From an uncultured Bacteroidales bacterium (GTDB taxonomy: Bacteria; Bacteroidota; Bacteroidia; Bacteroidales; Lentimicrobiaceae), in NCBI GenBank assembly GCA_937864935.1, contig CALMDN010000377.1, positions 1 through 10,317 on the forward strand: a stretch of 10,317 nucleotides of DNA. Reading direction: 5' to 3'. Shown here in pieces: positions 1,828 through 10,262 of this stretch; the stretch's first letter is position 1; the number at the start of each line of letters is the position of its first letter. The notes under the pieces were generated by a model. That model was given only the letters and a program-made list of their open reading frames with translations, made no database searches and was not told the origin of the DNA. A program made the translations under genes and the position numbers.

Positions 1828-4134
1828 ATGAAGACTATACTTACACTCCTGCTTCCGTTTATTCTCGTATATGCAAACGCACAGACTTCGTTGCATTCGG
1901 TTGATACAGAAAAGGAATTCGGTAATGCAAATGAAATCTACTTTGCACTACCCGGTTCAGCCTCCGAGGCATCCCGCTTAACATACATCATCAGTATCGA
2001 CAAAATCAAGGGCGACACCCTGTTTGCCTATGCCAGCAAGAAGGAATTTAACCGTCTGAAGGAGAGCGGAAACCGCAGTTTCCTCAGGTTGCAGCATCCC
2101 GGCACATTGATTGAACCCCTGATGTCATCTTCAACTCGGGACATTCTTGAATGGAACTACTACCCGACCTATCCGGCCTACGAACAGATCATGCAGGATT
2201 TTGCAGCCAATTACCCCGATATCTGCTCCCTGCAAACAATTGCTGTATTACCCAGCGGACGTAAATTACTGGCTATCAGAATATCTGATAATGTGAATGT
2301 TGAGGAAAATGAACCGGAGTTTCTTTATACTTCCACCATGCATGGTGACGAAACCACCGGATATGTTTTAATGCTTCACCTGATTGATTATTTGCTGACA
2401 AATTATGGGATTGATCCCCGGGTAACAGAAATGGTGAATAACATTGATATCTGGATCAATCCAAATGCAAATCCTGATGGAACTTATGCAGGAGGCAACA
2501 ATTCTGTTTACGGGGCTACCCGTTACAATGCCAATTTTGTTGACCTGAACAGAAACTATGCTGACCCGGAAGATGGCCCCCATCCTGATGGAGAAGCCTG
2601 GCAGCCGGAGACAGTGGCTTTTATGAATCTTGCCGAGAACCGTAATTTTGTGATGTCGGCCAATTTTCATGGAGGCGCCGAAGTGGTTAACTATCCGTGG
2701 GATACATGGAGCAGACTTGCGGCAGACAATAACTGGTGGGTGCTCGTTAGCCGTGAATACGCGGATACATGCCATGCCAACAGCCCTCCCGGGTATATGA
2801 CCGACCTTGACAACGGAATTACCAATGGCTATGCCTGGTACACAACTGCCGGGTGCAGGCAGGATTATATGAACTACTTTCAGCAATGCCGTGAATCAAC
2901 CATTGAAATATCTGCAACCAAACTTCCACCAGCCTCACAGTTAATTAATTTCTGGAATTACAACCATCGTTCATTATTGAATTATATTGAACAATCAACT
3001 TACGGAGTCAGGGGTGTCGTCTCTGATTCTATTACCGGCGAGCCAATAAAGGCCCAGGTATATATCAGTGGTCACGACATGGACAGTTCCATGGTTTTCA
3101 GCAGCCTGCCGGTCGGTAATTATCACCGTCTTTTAAAAGCCGGCACCTATAACCTGACTTTTTTTGCTGAAGGCTATATGCCCAAAACTATTCAGAATGT
3201 AGTGGTAGCGGATAAGTCAACGGTATGGCGGAATGTGAAACTGTGGGATGGTTCTGCTATTCCGGCCTTTACCTCTTCCGATACAATTACCCATGCCGGA
3301 GGCAGCATCCAGTTTAACGATGTTTCCGGTGGAAATCCTTCAAGCCGCCTGTGGACCTTTGAAGGATCCAATACCAGTACATCAACCGAAGCAAATCCGG
3401 TAGTTACCTACAATCAACCCGGAGAATATGCAGTTTCTCTTTATGTTTCGAATGCCATCGGTGGCAACCAGCTGGTAAAAGAGGACTATATCACGGTGAC
3501 CCCTGATTATTTTATCGGAACACTGAACCCATCCCTGTGTTATGCCCGTTTCTACGACAGCCAAGGTCCAGATGGTTCCTATGGCGGGGGAGAGAACCTG
3601 AGCACCACCTTTACCTCCGCTGATGCTGAGAAAGTACTTCGGGTACATTTTACCGGACTTGACATAGAAAACACATCAGGATGTACAGCAGATGTACTGA
3701 ATATTTATGATGGACCCTCCGTAAATTCTCCTTTGCTGGCCAGTATCTGCGGTAATGAAATTCCCGAAGACATTCTGGGTACTGAGCAGGGTGGTTCACT
3801 GACATTTTCTTTCAGTTCGGATGCCACCAACAACTTTAGCGGGTGGAGTGCAGTCATCAGTTGTGATACCGGAGTTGGTATTCCTTTCAGGGCAATGCCG
3901 GGTTTTGAACTTTACCCCAATCCTTCAACACAGGGAGAGGTCAATATCAGGTCAGCAGAAACAATCCACCGGGTTGATGTAAGGGATCTGTCGGGCAGGC
4001 TGGTATATTCAGGCGCACCGGAATCAAAACAGATTGTGCTGAATACCAGAGGTATCCACACAGGTTTGTACCTCATAACCATTGTTACAGGGGAAGGGGA
4101 GAAGACCGCCCGTTTGCAGGTCATCAACCGGTGA
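1828..4134 (+). CDS. Secreted M14 zinc carboxypeptidase with PKD, CUB-like and T9SS sorting domains
   Basis: A 768-residue exported metallocarboxypeptidase. A Sec signal peptide (1-18, cleavage near ANA/Q) precedes an M14 catalytic domain at about 108-388. Zinc ligands are H172 and E175 (MHGDE) and H281 (NFHGG); N241/R242 (DLNRNY) bind the substrate carboxylate; Y347 (QDY) matches the mobile tyrosine; E360 (STIEIS) is the general base. The NGITNGYAWY...QDY block resembles the N/E subfamily (M14B), as does the following transthyretin-like domain (about 391-472). Next come a PKD domain (about 478-558), a CUB-like domain with four Cys (about 570-680; NIYDGP, C-G), and a type A T9SS tail (about 693-768; LYPNPS, LSGR, GLYLI). 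The architecture recalls P. gingivalis CPG70, which removes C-terminal Lys/Arg; that specificity is inferred here. The product should be secreted through T9SS and may be anchored at the surface. It starts 15 bp after dapA and its stop abuts the convergent gene. Confidence 0.93.
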   Translation: MKTILTLLLPFILVYANAQTSLHSVDTEKEFGNANEIYFALPGSASEASRLTYIISIDKIKGDTLFAYASKKEFNRLKESGNRSFLRLQHPGTLIEPLMSSSTRDILEWNYYPTYPAYEQIMQDFAANYPDICSLQTIAVLPSGRKLLAIRISDNVNVEENEPEFLYTSTMHGDETTGYVLMLHLIDYLLTNYGIDPRVTEMVNNIDIWINPNANPDGTYAGGNNSVYGATRYNANFVDLNRNYADPEDGPHPDGEAWQPETVAFMNLAENRNFVMSANFHGGAEVVNYPWDTWSRLAADNNWWVLVSREYADTCHANSPPGYMTDLDNGITNGYAWYTTAGCRQDYMNYFQQCRESTIEISATKLPPASQLINFWNYNHRSLLNYIEQSTYGVRGVVSDSITGEPIKAQVYISGHDMDSSMVFSSLPVGNYHRLLKAGTYNLTFFAEGYMPKTIQNVVVADKSTVWRNVKLWDGSAIPAFTSSDTITHAGGSIQFNDVSGGNPSSRLWTFEGSNTSTSTEANPVVTYNQPGEYAVSLYVSNAIGGNQLVKEDYITVTPDYFIGTLNPSLCYARFYDSQGPDGSYGGGENLSTTFTSADAEKVLRVHFTGLDIENTSGCTADVLNIYDGPSVNSPLLASICGNEIPEDILGTEQGGSLTFSFSSDATNNFSGWSAVISCDTGVGIPFRAMPGFELYPNPSTQGEVNIRSAETIHRVDVRDLSGRLVYSGAPESKQIVLNTRGIHTGLYLITIVTGEGEKTARLQVINR

Positions 4135-5182: not shown

Positions 5183-5231
5183 TTAATTCTGTTTAACAAT
5201 AACTTAACATTCATTTAAAAGTAGCTTAAAC
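5183..5231 (+). promoter_or_regulatory. Pho-box-like array of TTAA-core direct repeats
   Basis: Five hexamers with a TTAA core begin at 5183 (TTAATT), 5193 (TTTAAC, core TTAA 5193-5196), 5204 (TTAACA), 5215 (TTAAAA) and 5226 (TTAAAC), at spacings of 10, 11, 11 and 11 bp. They therefore all lie on one face of the helix. The best copies read TTAACA, the same as the hexamer recognised by Bacillus PhoP, and PhoB-family regulators generally bind direct repeats with an 11-bp period. The array ends where a -33 element would sit relative to the TTACTTTG at 5252-5259, as for a class II activator. The repeats and phasing are seen directly; the identity of the regulator is inferred. Confidence 0.6.
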
Positions 5232-5251
5232 TCTATCCGGATTTGATTGGA

Positions 5252-5259
5252 TTACTTTG
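5252..5259 (+). promoter_or_regulatory. -7 element of the lipoprotein promoter
   Basis: TTACTTTG matches the Bacteroidota -7 consensus TAnnTTTG at five of six fixed positions. There is no TTG 19 bp upstream; that position is taken by the last repeat of the Pho-box-like array, which suggests activator dependence. The predicted transcript starts near 5266, giving an A-rich leader of about 20 nt before the ATG at 5287. Confidence 0.5.
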
Positions 5260-5286: not shown

Positions 5287-6720
5287 ATGAAAAAAATTCT
5301 GATGTTTGCTCTTGTTGCTTCACTTGCAGTTTTTACTGCCTGTAAAGATGACGAAGAAACTTTTAGTGCACCTACAGTTTCTACCCCTACTCCGGTTTCT
5401 GCTGAATTCAGCACTGATGTAGAATTATCATTCAATTATACTGCTGATGCAGGTTTCAAATCTGCAACGGTTTCTGCCACCAATGGCAGTGCAGTAATCA
5501 AGACCAACGGAACCAGCGGTTCAAAGTCAGGTTCAGTTGTAGTAACCTACACTGCAGGAACAACAGTAGGTGCCGGTAGTGTAATACTGACAGTAACCGA
5601 CAATTCGAATCAGACTGCCAGTGGTACAGCTGTTATCAGTGTTCTTGAAGAACAGATGGAATATACGATTACAGGTAACATTACCGAGAATACCACCTGG
5701 GAAACCGGCAAGGTATACATTCTGGCCAGCAGGATCGCTGTAGTTTCAGGAGTTACCCTGACCATTGAGCCTGGTGTTATAGTTAAAGGTGAGGCCGGAA
5801 CCGGTGCCAATGCAACTGCATTGCTCGTTGCCCGCGGTGGTAAAATTATGGCCGAAGGTACTGCTTCATCCCCGATTATCTTTACTTCCATTGCCGATGA
5901 AATTATGCCGGGTGAAGTAGCCAGTCCGAACCTCGACCCAAGTCTGAACGGATTGTGGGGTGGTCTGCTTATCCTTGGCAACGCACCGATCTCTGCAAGT
6001 GCTGCCTCAGTTCAGATTGAAGGTATTCCTCCTTCAGATCAGAACGGTCTGTTTGGTGGTTCTGATGCCAGCGACAATTCAGGCGTAATCAAATATGTTT
6101 CTATCCGTCACGGCGGCGCCAACATCGGCGAAGGCAACGAAATCAATGGTCTTACCCTTGGTGGTGTCGGCTCAGGTACTGTGATTGAGAATGTTGAAAT
6201 CATTGGTAACCAGGATGACGGAATCGAATGGTTCGGCGGAACTGTAAATGTAAAAAATGCAATTATCTGGAATCCCGGTGACGATGCAGTAGATACTGAT
6301 ATGTCATGGGGTGGTACCCTGGATAACTTCGTGGTTGTAAACGCCGGTGACGAGTGTTTTGAACTCGACGGTCCTGAAGGCGCTATGGCTGCTAAGCATA
6401 CCATTAAAAACGGAACCGTTTATGCTCTGGCTGCCGATGGACTGGTTGATAACGATGCCAACTCTTATGTTGACATGATGAATGTATACTTCCGCGACAT
6501 CAAAGACGGACAGGATTTTGATCAGTTGCCTGTTGATTACACCTGTGTGTTCAGCAGCCTGGAAGCTACCCTGCCCGATGGAACAGCCGTTTCTGATTTC
6601 TTCAAAGGTGGATCGGATGCTTTCGTAACAAGTGTTGCTCTTGACGCCAACACTGTTGGTGCAGACCTTACAAAGTTTGAAGGTTGGTCATGGGCCCATA
6701 CCTCCGGATCTTTAAAATAA
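5287..6720 (+). CDS. Surface lipoprotein with Ig-like domain and right-handed beta-helix
   Basis: A 477-residue predicted surface lipoprotein. The signal peptide MKKILMFALVASLAVFTAC ends at lipobox Cys19, and the following K-D-D-E-E resembles the lipoprotein export signal (K followed by acidic residues) that sends Bacteroidota lipoproteins to the outer face of the outer membrane. Residues about 27-122 form an Ig-like/Big-type beta domain. From about 126 to the end there is a right-handed parallel beta-helix: TLTIEPGVIVKG (157-168), IIFTS, LWGGLLILGNAP (223-234), IKYVSIRHGG (268-277), then short rungs with stacked acidic motifs (DDGIE, DDAVD, DECFE). No catalytic signature and no T9SS tail are visible. 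ATG 5287 is chosen over an upstream in-frame TTG at 5257 because it begins the lipoprotein signal and follows the promoter. The gene sits just before a TonB-dependent receptor, the position usually held by a SusD-like partner, so a role in ligand capture is inferred. Confidence 0.88.
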   Translation: MKKILMFALVASLAVFTACKDDEETFSAPTVSTPTPVSAEFSTDVELSFNYTADAGFKSATVSATNGSAVIKTNGTSGSKSGSVVVTYTAGTTVGAGSVILTVTDNSNQTASGTAVISVLEEQMEYTITGNITENTTWETGKVYILASRIAVVSGVTLTIEPGVIVKGEAGTGANATALLVARGGKIMAEGTASSPIIFTSIADEIMPGEVASPNLDPSLNGLWGGLLILGNAPISASAASVQIEGIPPSDQNGLFGGSDASDNSGVIKYVSIRHGGANIGEGNEINGLTLGGVGSGTVIENVEIIGNQDDGIEWFGGTVNVKNAIIWNPGDDAVDTDMSWGGTLDNFVVVNAGDECFELDGPEGAMAAKHTIKNGTVYALAADGLVDNDANSYVDMMNVYFRDIKDGQDFDQLPVDYTCVFSSLEATLPDGTAVSDFFKGGSDAFVTSVALDANTVGADLTKFEGWSWAHTSGSLK

Positions 6721-6742
6721 TTCAACTTTTTTGATTGCATTG

Positions 6743-6772
6743 AAGCTCGCAGGGTTTTACCCTGCGGGCTTT
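6743..6772 (+). terminator. Strong hairpin between lipoprotein and receptor, probable attenuator/terminator
   Basis: The arms AGCTCGCAGGGT (6744-6755) and ACCCTGCGGGCT (6759-6770) pair over 12 bp with one U-G wobble and a TTT loop, extend by another A-T pair, and are followed by TTATT. It lies 23 bp after the lipoprotein stop and 40 bp before the receptor start. The U-tract is short and no promoter is visible before the receptor, so partial termination, or mRNA 3'-end protection, that leaves more lipoprotein than receptor message is likely. Confidence 0.65.
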
Positions 6773-6812
6773 ATTAACGAATATCGATTAAAAACAATAT
6801 CAATAAAAAAGT

Positions 6813-9713
6813 ATGCACAATTTAAAATTTCTTTCAATCCTGTTGTTTATTGTCCTCACAGGTAAACTGCTTCTGGCGCAGAACGGATTTATCCGGGGTA
6901 GTGTTTTTGACGATACTACCGGAGAAACCCTTCCGGGGGTAACCATCTTTGTTGAAGGAACCACCACAGGCACTCTAACGGATTTTGACGGTAAATTCAA
7001 CCTGAGCATAGCACCGGGGAAATACAACATAAGAATTTCATTTATTTCTTATGAAACAGTAAACCTTAAAGAGGTTGCCGTCACTTCAGGAAAAGTCACC
7101 CTGTTTGAGAACATCAGGCTGAAAGAAGCCAAGATTGAACTTGCCGAAGTTACCATTACCGCCGAAGCGGTGAGAAATTCTGAAGTGGCCTTACTCACCA
7201 TGAAGCAGAAATCAGCCAACCTGATTGACGGTATTTCGGCTGCCAATTTCAGGAAAATCGGTGATTCAGATGCTGCATCCTCGATGAAGAGGGTTGCCGG
7301 TGTCTCCGTGGAGGGAGGAAAATATGTGTACGTCAGGGGATTGGGCGACAGATACAGCAAAACCATCCTGAACGGAATGGATATCCCGGGCATTGATCCG
7401 GACAGGAACACGGTTCAGATGGACCTGTTTCCAACAAACATAGTTGACAACATTATTGTACATAAATCCTTCAGTGCCAATCTTCCGGCAGATTTTACCG
7501 GGGGAGTTGTGGATATTGAAACAAAAGATTTCCCGGAATTAAAAACCGGGAGTATATCACTCAGTCTTGGCTATAACCCCCTGTTCAACCTCAACAGCGA
7601 TTTCCTCACCTATGAGGGGGGGAGTACCGATTTTTTAGGCTTTGACGACGGAACCCGGGACATTCCGGCCGTAGACAATATACCTCAGTTTTCAGAGGTG
7701 GCTGGTAATCCTGACGGAGAGAAAGGACTGAGATACAAGGAAATTCTTGAGAGTTTTAATCCGGAGATGGGTACATCGCGCAAAACCAGCATGCCGGACT
7801 TCAATTTCGGATTCTCCATAGGGAATCAGATACCAAAAGAGAAGGTAACCTGGGGATACAATGCCTCCTTTTCATATAAGAACTCATCTGAGTTTTATGA
7901 AGAAGTTCAGTATGGCAGGTATGGTGTGGATCCGGCAAAACCGGAAGTTAATGAAATGGATTTCAGGGAGTTTCAGAATGGTGGTCTCGGTGTCAACAAT
8001 GTGATGATCAGCGGTATGGCTGGTGTTGCAATGAAAACCAAATATTCGAAATACAGACTGAATGTCCTGCATCTGCAGAATGGCGAGAAAAGGGCTGGTA
8101 TCTTCATCTACCGGAATTCAGACCTGGGTGCCATCTTTGAAGGAGTTCAGCATAACCTTGAATTCACCGAGCGTTCAATGACCAATATCCTGCTGAATGG
8201 TAAACATCTGTTCTCTGACAACAACTGGCAGCTTGAATGGAAACTGTCACCGTCATTTTCGAGAATGGATGATCCCGACATCCGTTTTACCCGTTATGAA
8301 CTTAAAGACGGAGATTATATTATAGGTACTGAAGCCGGTTTCCCGGAACGGATATGGCGCGAACTGGATGAAGTCAGCCTGTCAGGAAACTTTGATCTGA
8401 CCAGAACCCTGAATGTATTTGGCGAAAAATCACAATTGAAGTTCGGAGGATTGTTAACCCGCAAGGACCGCAATTTTATCATCCGTAACTTTCAGCTGAA
8501 TGTCAGAAATATTCCTTTAACCGGCGATCCCAATGAATTGTACTTTCCTGAAAACCTCTGGCCTTACAATGGAAACCCGGGGCGGGGAACAACCTTCGAA
8601 ACACCTTTTATTCCGGTAAATCGCAATCAGTTTGAAGCTAATAACCTGAATGCCGCAGGCTACGTGTCATGGGAAATGTCACCGCTTTCTTTCCTGAAAC
8701 TTATTCTTGGGGTCAGGACAGAAATGTACCAGCAAAGATATACCGGGCAGAATCAGCTTGGCGACATCGTACTGGACAATGAGAAAGTACTCGACGACCT
8801 GGATATTTTCCCTGCTGCCAACGTAATTTTCAACCTCAGCCAAAGCCAGAATCTTCGGTTTTCGTACTCCAGAACTATCGCGAGACCTTCTATGAAAGAG
8901 TTGTCCTATGCTGAAATATTTGACGCAATTACCGGCAGAACGTTTATCGGTGGTCTTTTCACCGATGAAGAATATAAGCTTGGAATATTCTACTTGGATG
9001 GAAAAATCAAAAGTACCCACATCGATAACCTCGATCTGAGATGGGAAATGTTTGGCAAAGGTGGACAGACAGTTTCACTTGGGGCGTTCTATAAGTATTT
9101 CGTTGACCCGATAGAGATTGTACAGTATTTCACACAGGCAGGTGCGTTCCAGCCCCGGAATGTTGGCGATGGCACGCTCATCGGAATGGAAGCTGAGTTC
9201 AGGAAGAATCTTGAATTTATTAATCCTGTGCTTTCAGCCATCAGCCTGAGCTCAAATTTCACCTACACCATTTCGCGAATAAAACTGAGTTCAACAGAAT
9301 ATGAATCGCGACTAAAAAATGCAAGGGCCGGAGAAACCATCGATAAATACCGCAGCATGGCCGGTCAGGCTCCTTTTATCATCAATGCCGGTCTGGCTTA
9401 TGATGGTTCCGGGAAAGGGTTCCTTCAAGGCCTGGAAGCCGGTATCTACTACAATGTGCAGGGCCCAACCCTCGAAGTAGTGGGAATTGCCTCACTGCGG
9501 GATGTCTATACAAAACCCTTCAACAGTCTGAACCTCAATATCAATAAATCCTTTGGTGAAAGTAAGAAATTTCAGATCGGACTCAAAATTGATAACCTGC
9601 TTGGTGATGTCAAGGAGTCTGTATTCCGGTCATACGAAGCGGCCGATCAATACTACACCTACCTGAAGCAGGGAAGAACTTACCAGCTGAGACTGGGTTA
9701 CAAGTTTTTCTGA
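6813..9713 (+). CDS. TonB-dependent outer membrane receptor with carboxypeptidase-regulatory-like domain
   Basis: A 966-residue outer-membrane beta-barrel transporter that takes up a ligand using TonB/ExbBD energy. A signal peptide (1-22, LLLA/Q) is followed by a CarboxypepD_reg-like/SusC-type N-terminal extension (about 25-104; GETLPGVTIFVEGT, TDFDGKF), a TonB-box-like segment (AEVTITA, 111-117) and the plug (about 130-240; SMKRVAGVSVEGGKYVYVRG, GDRYSKTILNGM, FTGGVVDIETKD). The remainder is the barrel, ending in a C-terminal aromatic (LGYKFF) as required for BAM insertion. The length suits the family. The VRGLGDRYSKT plug is the iron/siderophore-receptor-like branch found widely in Bacteroidota and differs from typical SusC polysaccharide receptors. 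No SusD follows; the beta-helix lipoprotein precedes it by 92 bp and is the likely partner. The ATG at 6813 has an AAAAAAGT leader like that of the lipoprotein. The substrate is unknown; the upstream Pho-box-like array suggests a phosphorus compound (inference). Confidence 0.93.
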   Translation: MHNLKFLSILLFIVLTGKLLLAQNGFIRGSVFDDTTGETLPGVTIFVEGTTTGTLTDFDGKFNLSIAPGKYNIRISFISYETVNLKEVAVTSGKVTLFENIRLKEAKIELAEVTITAEAVRNSEVALLTMKQKSANLIDGISAANFRKIGDSDAASSMKRVAGVSVEGGKYVYVRGLGDRYSKTILNGMDIPGIDPDRNTVQMDLFPTNIVDNIIVHKSFSANLPADFTGGVVDIETKDFPELKTGSISLSLGYNPLFNLNSDFLTYEGGSTDFLGFDDGTRDIPAVDNIPQFSEVAGNPDGEKGLRYKEILESFNPEMGTSRKTSMPDFNFGFSIGNQIPKEKVTWGYNASFSYKNSSEFYEEVQYGRYGVDPAKPEVNEMDFREFQNGGLGVNNVMISGMAGVAMKTKYSKYRLNVLHLQNGEKRAGIFIYRNSDLGAIFEGVQHNLEFTERSMTNILLNGKHLFSDNNWQLEWKLSPSFSRMDDPDIRFTRYELKDGDYIIGTEAGFPERIWRELDEVSLSGNFDLTRTLNVFGEKSQLKFGGLLTRKDRNFIIRNFQLNVRNIPLTGDPNELYFPENLWPYNGNPGRGTTFETPFIPVNRNQFEANNLNAAGYVSWEMSPLSFLKLILGVRTEMYQQRYTGQNQLGDIVLDNEKVLDDLDIFPAANVIFNLSQSQNLRFSYSRTIARPSMKELSYAEIFDAITGRTFIGGLFTDEEYKLGIFYLDGKIKSTHIDNLDLRWEMFGKGGQTVSLGAFYKYFVDPIEIVQYFTQAGAFQPRNVGDGTLIGMEAEFRKNLEFINPVLSAISLSSNFTYTISRIKLSSTEYESRLKNARAGETIDKYRSMAGQAPFIINAGLAYDGSGKGFLQGLEAGIYYNVQGPTLEVVGIASLRDVYTKPFNSLNLNINKSFGESKKFQIGLKIDNLLGDVKESVFRSYEAADQYYTYLKQGRTYQLRLGYKFF

Positions 9714-9800: not shown

Positions 9801-10262
9801 ATGAAAAACGCTTTACTTACTGCCTTGTTTCTGATGGTGGTATCGTTGGGATTTTCTCAGAACCTTGAGTACAAAGATGGCCTTTACTATAAAAAAGGTA
9901 TGCTCTATACCGGCACCCACATTGAATATTACGACAATGGCAGAATACTGGTTGAGCTCTCCATCAAAAACGGACTGGAAGATGGTACGGTAAACCACTA
10001 TTACGAAAACGGCAACAAAAAGGAGCAATGGCAATATACCGAAGGAAAGAAAAACGGTACCTGGATCACCTGGAGCGAGGAGGGCGTGAAAATTGCCGAG
10101 GCTTCGTACAAGGATAACCAGAAAGACGGAACCTGGTATATCTGGGACAACAAAGGCACCATGCTATATGAAATGCACTACACCATGGGGAAGAAGACCG
10201 GTATCTGGAAACAATGGGATGAATCCGGCAAACTTATCATGGAAAGAGCGTATACAGACTGA
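9801..10262 (+). CDS. Secreted MORN_2/YwqK-type repeat protein
   Basis: A small exported protein of 153 residues. Residues 1-19 form a Sec signal peptide (LLTALFLMVVSLGFS/Q, the cleavage context common in Bacteroidota) with no lipobox, so it is probably periplasmic or secreted. The mature part has five tandem repeats of about 22-25 residues, at roughly 36-58, 59-83, 84-108, 109-131 and 132-153, with consensus G-T/I-W-x-x-Y/W-x-x-x-G-x-K/L. These match the MORN_2 repeats grouped by databases under 'YwqK family antitoxin'. That name does not imply an antitoxin role: no toxin gene adjoins it and the protein is exported. The repeats form a twisted beta-sheet and usually act as a binding scaffold. 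It lies 87 bp after the receptor gene on the same strand, with a weak hairpin between, so co-transcription is possible but unproven. Function is unknown. Confidence 0.85.
   Translation: MKNALLTALFLMVVSLGFSQNLEYKDGLYYKKGMLYTGTHIEYYDNGRILVELSIKNGLEDGTVNHYYENGNKKEQWQYTEGKKNGTWITWSEEGVKIAEASYKDNQKDGTWYIWDNKGTMLYEMHYTMGKKTGIWKQWDESGKLIMERAYTD

Follow-up and report, generated by a model that had tools for sequence, protein, structure and literature searches.

The PhoP box of Bacillus subtilis is composed of TTAACA-type hexamers with a period of about 11 bp. Judging from the accessible part of its description, the Pho box of E. coli consists of two 11-nt direct repeats with the core CTGTCAT (PMC4415409). 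For Bacteroidota, the published texts available to us in part contain several related observations: the DAP-seq motif of PhoP from Riemerella anatipestifer, with TTTAACA as its most conserved nucleotides, is found around 579 out of 583 peaks, which extend beyond phosphate genes, and was likened to ArcA by its authors (PMC9603813); PhoB of B. fragilis binds the pstC promoter (PMC3547664); and putative Pho boxes were recognized in plcP clusters of marine bacteria, a flavobacterium being among the hosts (PMC4796936). In F. johnsoniae, Pi depletion induces several TonB receptors as well as three lipoproteins (FI, FII and FIII) that were likened to polygalacturonase, whereas N and Fe limitation represses them, and FII belongs to the phoBR cluster; the main text of this report does not contain the words Pho box, motif or promoter (PMC8115612). 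Within the literature searched, mainly open-access and partly available as excerpts, no description was found of a Bacteroidota Pho box of the form presented below.

The array compared here with these systems is located in a window of 10,317 nucleotides, i.e., the whole stretch of DNA analyzed (contig C377), from the 3.0 Mb genome of an uncultured Bacteroidales bacterium (589 contigs, estimated completeness 72.5%). The named relatives found comprise Lentimicrobium, further members of the Bacteroidales and other Bacteroidota, for the most part MAGs. With its TTAACA-like sequence in tandem copies at one-turn spacing, the array resembles the PhoP box of B. subtilis, while differing from it in belonging to another phylum, in being docked to the Bacteroidota -7 element in 11-bp steps and in the drift of its copies to TTAAT and GTAA. 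With the E. coli Pho box it shares direct repeats of 11 bp serving an activator of the PhoB family, but it has a different half-site sequence and four copies instead of two. The R. anatipestifer motif comes from the same phylum and has the same core, although its description, in the part available, includes neither a four-copy 11-bp layout nor -7 phasing or a focus on phosphate genes. Since the site recurs at phosphate-uptake genes both in the source genome and in relatives, the array (Table 1) is very probably a phosphate-starvation switch site, and it is read with high confidence as a Pho box, in which a phosphorylated response regulator of the PhoB family would bind four tandem half-sites of 11 bp.

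Table 1. Features of the window and array-bearing genes of relatives (window positions, unless a locus is named).
Feature	Position	Strand	Remarks
Extra TTAA	5183..5186	+	10 bp 5' of the array; not conserved, probably chance
Pho-box-like array	5193..5231	+	four TTAA(C/A) repeats at 5193, 5204, 5215 and 5226, spaced by exactly 11 bp
-7 element TTACTTTG	5252..5259	+	sequence element; TTTG at 5256, 30 bp past the start of the last repeat
Lipoprotein	5287..6720	+	lipobox FTAC, then KDDEE; Ig/PKD-like domain and beta-helix; predicted main target
Terminator-like hairpin	6741..6773	+	z -6.7 for 6721-6812; between lipoprotein and receptor
TonB-dependent receptor with CarbopepD_reg_2	6813..9713	+	predicted second operon gene; gene order same in relatives
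MORN-repeat protein	9801..10262	+	third gene in the conserved order; candidate operon member
~117-aa CarboxypepD_reg gene with array	L191:9306-9662	-	
~117-aa CarboxypepD_reg gene with array	L192:11770-12123	-	
~117-aa CarboxypepD_reg gene with array	L194:6124-6474	-	
~117-aa CarboxypepD_reg gene with array	L195:8889-9242	-	
~117-aa CarboxypepD_reg gene with array	L295:2625-2975	-	
~117-aa CarboxypepD_reg gene with array	L296:2721-3074	+	

The five TTAA cores (spacings of 10, 11, 11 and 11 bp) and the two TTAACA copies, at 5193 and 5204, were present as described in the initial annotation, and tandem direct repeats with an 11-bp period, as in a Pho box, are thus found in the window. The exact five-core pattern occurred once, its three overlapping matches with up to 3 mismatches all fell on the array site, and no match at this tolerance appeared in 200 dinucleotide shuffles of the window. 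The proposal of a five-copy array was nevertheless reduced to four copies: none of the 12 congeneric arrays examined had a TTAA 10 bp before the first repeat (the L018 array had one at 8 bp instead), and the functional unit was therefore taken to be the four copies at 5193-5231. Three TTAA at 11 bp were unremarkable by themselves, because the AT-rich source genome gave five forward matches at three places compared to three for the reversed control pattern. The four-copy degenerate pattern gave a single match in this genome and none for its reversed control, and over the 19 genus genomes there were 37 matches versus 8 for the reversed pattern; it preceded the lipoprotein gene in 13 of the 19.

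The array is conserved over several orders of the Bacteroidota. Among the lipoprotein homologues, the best 80 of 318 confirmed loci were analyzed, resulting in 72 upstream regions after dereplication. In these regions, TTAA pairs numbered 98 at lag 11 (3.7 in dinucleotide shuffles), 61 at lag 22 (3.4) and 33 at lag 33 (3.3), with 1-3 pairs each at lags 9, 10, 12 and 13 and a mild increase to 11-14 versus 3-4 at lags 5, 6, 17, 28, 32, 39 and 41. On a 44-bp matrix with the repeat unit (C)(T/G)TAA(C/T)A, the window array scored 33.4 bits, and 65 of the 72 regions exceeded the 99% point of shuffled sequences, the shuffles preserving single-base composition only and the matrix being fitted to the sequences that it scored. 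As the matrix was fitted to lipoprotein promoters, other loci were used for the later recurrence tests. Judged by the titles of their records, the scoring loci include Bacteroidales, Crocinitomix, Cryomorpha, Flavobacteriales, Portibacter, Saprospirales and Fulvivirga, while a convincing array was absent from 7 of the 72 regions, including Algoriphagus and Echinicola. Conservation of the phasing, on which the initial annotation had made its reading depend, was evident from all 12 congeneric arrays, which keep four copies at exactly 11-bp spacing, and from the phylum-wide excess at lag 11. That the TTAA copies of this AT-rich intergenic region are arranged by chance might be argued from the three-copy TTAA arrays at two other places in the source genome, but this was rejected as having next to no probability in view of the conservation in relatives and the excess both at lag 11 and of the four-copy pattern; the phasing of TTTG and the difference between pstS and SusD loci, both given below, also speak against it.

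TTTG is the core of the Bacteroidota -7 element, with the consensus TAnnTTTG. The -7-like TTACTTTG initially claimed downstream of the array was confirmed, and the 30-bp offset of its TTTG (5226 to 5256) was repeated in 12 out of 12 congeneric arrays. Among 62 arrays of at least 14 bits, counted from the last scored repeat and with about 0.3 occurrences expected per position, 58 had TTTG at one or more of the offsets 19-20, 30-31 and 41-42 bp past the start of that repeat (22 arrays at 19 bp, 2 at 20 bp, 26 at 30 bp, 8 at 31 bp and 3 at 41-42 bp), i.e., at offsets separated by whole 11-bp turns. At the PHO4 sites of the source genome the second copy, counted by hand, is 40 bp ahead of TTTG. 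A fixed promoter position replacing the -35/-33 element, as in a Pho box, was thus found, and this arrangement is the geometry of a putative activator meeting RNA polymerase from one helix face and substituting for the missing -33. The AT-richness of the array, its location directly upstream of the -7 and the phase between the two would also suit an UP-element-like tract or helix-phased curved DNA boosting the promoter without a dedicated regulator; yet the repeats are sequence-specific and paired at 11 rather than 10 bp, and functionally linked genes have the array while SusD loci within the order do not, which makes such an explanation very improbable.

The recurrence of the site was followed first of all around the lipoprotein genes. 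Scanning the flanks of the 80 genes (820,728 bp) with the matrix revealed, at 50 of the 80 loci, a site of at least 20 bits no more than 260 bp ahead of the lipoprotein gene and 24 further sites of at least 20 bits in the surroundings, compared to none for the reversed matrix over the same length. Fourteen of these 24 preceded a secreted CarboxypepD_reg protein of ~117 aa (from the listing read by eye, with Pfam applied to one example), two were at pstS (one confirmed as PstS, the other by resemblance), one at the Porin_O_P gene of L056 (family confirmed) and two shared a single divergent region of L054, while the remaining ones were assigned by resemblance to a PHO4-like gene, a response-regulator fragment, two TonB receptors and a MORN protein. 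In the divergent region (L054:2927-3016) two arrays, of 31.1 and 26.7 bits, overlap on opposite strands; one of them precedes the gene of a 424-aa secreted protein, and a 425-aa protein resembling the latter is encoded near arrays in L197.

A matrix scan upstream of pstS, proposed in the initial annotation, detected arrays in relatives. The PstS set consisted of 30 of the best TIGR02136 matches at the order level, from 149 genomes, and was not used for the matrix. A site of at least 16 bits was present within 240 bp upstream of pstS at 12 of these 30 loci and before a ~420-aa gene preceding pstS at three more, and was absent from 15; locus L207, lacking the site, was counted as a miss. The locus sets overlap in places: the pstS sites of L109 and L229 are identical in sequence, and L117 and L211 represent one gene. 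The ~420-aa gene product, scanned in one of the three cases, matched no Pfam family. Among the 24 PF12849 loci of the genus, a site of at least 14 bits was present in two, both ahead of a pstSCAB-phoU operon (G003 and G007), and absent from 22; the pst operon of G008 has 71 bp of upstream sequence only. In the PHO4 set, 7 of 30 loci had a site at 14 bits and 23 had none, five of the seven sites preceding a DUF47-like or PHO4 gene (one by Pfam, four by resemblance). None of the 30 SusD control loci (105 kb) had a site, by which a generic Sus-type promoter feature was rejected, and across the four locus sets a single site at 14 bits was obtained with the reversed matrix. The array, therefore, is found again ahead of pstS and further Pi-uptake genes, as is characteristic for a Pho box.

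A profile based on sequence only and built from 24 arrays, the window array included, was run over the 19 genus genomes; in the source genome, 150 of the 643 first-look candidates were scored with it. Among the matches listed for this genome, the window array, itself a member of the profile, was the best (E 3.1e-7), followed by the site upstream of the PhoB-like gene on C267 (E 0.0019). Two sites were associated with PHO4 genes, both of them two-copy half arrays with weak E-values: C294:3187 (E 0.096), ~100 bp ahead of a DUF47 (PhoU_div) gene, behind which a PHO4 transporter is encoded, and C572:1186 (E 0.15), flanked by a Na/Pi-cotransporter-type gene and a PHO4 gene. G001, G017 and G018 have a half or a full array at the same gene. 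An about equal score was obtained for C558:4765 (E 0.186), located beside a regulator-kinase pair with no phosphate gene in view; C160:1280 (E 0.72) was also listed, and no match among those listed belonged to the third PHO4 gene, on C413.

For the initial condition of a similar array at Pst or phosphatase genes of the same genome, the outcome is mixed. An array or half array stands upstream of the PhoB-like gene and at two PHO4 loci, the latter two being weak. Read literally, however, the condition spoke against a Pho box: the MAG, incomplete as it is, gave no match to PstS, and in the genus none of 30 loci with a PF00245 alkaline phosphatase, representing 23 distinct genes or best fragments with some second fragments of one gene, reached 14 bits (best 12.1; 99,929 bp), the two loci of the source genome included. 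Accordingly, the alkaline-phosphatase placement expected of a Pho box was not observed for PF00245, and the confidence in a Pho box was slightly lowered by this absence. Alkaline phosphatase is not a member of every Pho regulon. The only hint for PF00245 was a weak 12.1-bit site (profile E 0.17) ~220 bp before the alkaline phosphatase gene of L381 (G015:C538). Profile matches G003:C40 and G011:C43, preceding proteins of unknown function, were set aside, as were G009:C98, located inside an open frame, and the C558 match of the source genome.

Two PhoB-like regulators are encoded in the source genome, on C53 and C267. For the C53 regulator, PhoB was the best of 96 NCBIfam families, with 210.6 bits versus a cut-off of 296.2 and 208.3 versus 270, while the C267-type regulator of G001 scored 198.1 and 195.4 bits; because these scores are below the curated cut-offs of TIGR02154 and NF053854, the regulators are called only PhoB-like. 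The C53 gene is followed by a PhoR/PnpS-like kinase gene. Of the 30 genus proteins whose loci were available, the regulator tree placed 10 with the C267 type, 16 with the C53 type and 4 elsewhere. All 10 of the C267 type had the array, starting 62-81 bp before ATG (13.2-21.6 bits), compared to none of the 16 C53-type and none of the 4 other genes at their own promoters (best 8.9 bits). The clade with the array in its own promoter includes G000:C267 (L241) and G001:C2 (L306:2592-3272), and no kinase gene was seen beside the regulator in the G001:C2 stretch. Furthermore, at 8 of the 80 loci (L077, L082, L084, L092, L096, L108, L111 and L114) a PhoB-like gene points away from the lipoprotein gene with a site of at least 14 bits between them; six of these eight regulators group with the C53 type, while those of L108 and L111 fall into neither clade. 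The phoBR-type (C53) protein is likely the activator of the array, with the C267 type as its target or partner.

The same data were weighed for a different assignment, in which the array would serve another regulator of the OmpR/PhoB family, such as the C267-type paralogue or a redox or envelope regulator, and would be used by some phosphate genes as well. Tandem sites with a spacing of about one turn are common to proteins of the OmpR family, the clade with the array in its own promoter differs from the clade preceding the PhoR-like kinase, and the array is absent from alkaline-phosphatase loci in the genus. The ArcA-like appearance of the R. anatipestifer motif, as judged by its authors in the accessible part of their report, points in the same direction (PMC9603813). 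On the other hand, the sites cluster at Pi-uptake genes and not at SusD loci, G017 and G018, both with the array at the lipoprotein gene, have a single strong PhoB match each, which belongs to the phoBR-type clade, and the same clade includes, from sequence, most of the lipoprotein-linked regulators (see above). The assignment to another regulator is, therefore, unlikely, although it is the most serious competitor of the Pho box. The latter reading, proposed initially, is strongly supported: it fits the geometry, the conservation, particularly of the phasing, and the company of phosphate-uptake genes, including pstS of relatives, and fails the alkaline-phosphatase expectation. In its favour are also the published TTTAACA core of the R. 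anatipestifer motif (PMC9603813), the binding of B. fragilis PhoB to the pstC promoter (PMC3547664) and, for the phosphate response predicted initially, the Pi-depletion induction of look-alike proteins in F. johnsoniae (PMC8115612).

According to the Pho-box reading, a PhoR-type kinase would phosphorylate PhoB at low phosphate, and two PhoB-family dimers would occupy the four half-sites head-to-tail on one DNA face. PhoB positioned next to the -7 would replace the missing -33 and recruit RNA polymerase, with strong induction of the lipoprotein and a weaker one of the TonB receptor located behind the hairpin. Similar hairpins were seen in 5 relatives examined by eye, two of them nearly identical, with stem bases changed in relatives. 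Its place between the two genes points to a lower output of receptor than of lipoprotein for the window hairpin, and of the read-through into the receptor predicted by the initial annotation only a partial one may, consequently, be retained.

Relatives of the lipoprotein have the precomputed label PF28492, and a Pfam scan of the window protein itself gave no family. Its structural model (mean pLDDT 82.7) consists of an Ig/PKD-like domain (~25-121) and a right-handed beta-helix of the pectin-lyase type (~121-472), the best structural matches of the latter being PL6 alginate lyases and polygalacturonases. The best Foldseek matches were polygalacturonases, with E 4e-6 and poor superposition, and a PDB sequence search detected no relative (E 0.17 and above). 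The K-D-D following the lipobox cysteine resembles a surface-export signal of Bacteroidota. Lipoprotein and receptor probably serve together to capture phosphate, organic or polymer-bound, on the outside of the cell and to import it. In the available text on F. johnsoniae, PUS III/IV likewise combine polygalacturonase-like lipoproteins with pf13715 TonB receptors, although with the receptor before the lipoprotein, the reverse of the window order (PMC8115612). The window lipoprotein shares the beta-helix/polygalacturonase likeness of FI, FII and FIII, compared by description, and the window operon looks like a member of the same functional class, because both lipoproteins were likened to the same enzymes.

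The ~117-aa secreted CarboxypepD_reg protein with the array is present in many Bacteroidota, often within a few kb of the lipoprotein operon, and is predicted from its promoter to be an uncharacterized member of the Pho regulon. In G011 its gene is located ~4.5 kb past the end of the lipoprotein gene, and the window ends before that distance. Tentatively, and with a little less than an even chance, the Bacteroidota may share an ancient Pho regulon with a TTAACA-type four-copy box docked to the -7 in whole turns, whose most constant members would be surface proteins (the beta-helix lipoprotein with the TonB receptor and the ~117-aa CarboxypepD_reg protein) and not pst or alkaline phosphatase. 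If so, capture of phosphate compounds at the outer membrane would be the core of the phosphate response of the phylum. Independently of this, the array provides a workable and testable definition of the Pho box in the Bacteroidota, whose phosphate regulons have been measured and in which, within the literature accessible to us, no such box was found laid out. Phosphate-starvation genes of uncultured relatives, several with no known function, would become predictable from sequence, with the surface lipoprotein and the TonB receptor standing out as a main phosphate-scavenging machine. Upstream of the locus, at 1828-4134, the window also encodes a zinc carboxypeptidase (M14) with CUB, PKD and type IX secretion sorting domains.
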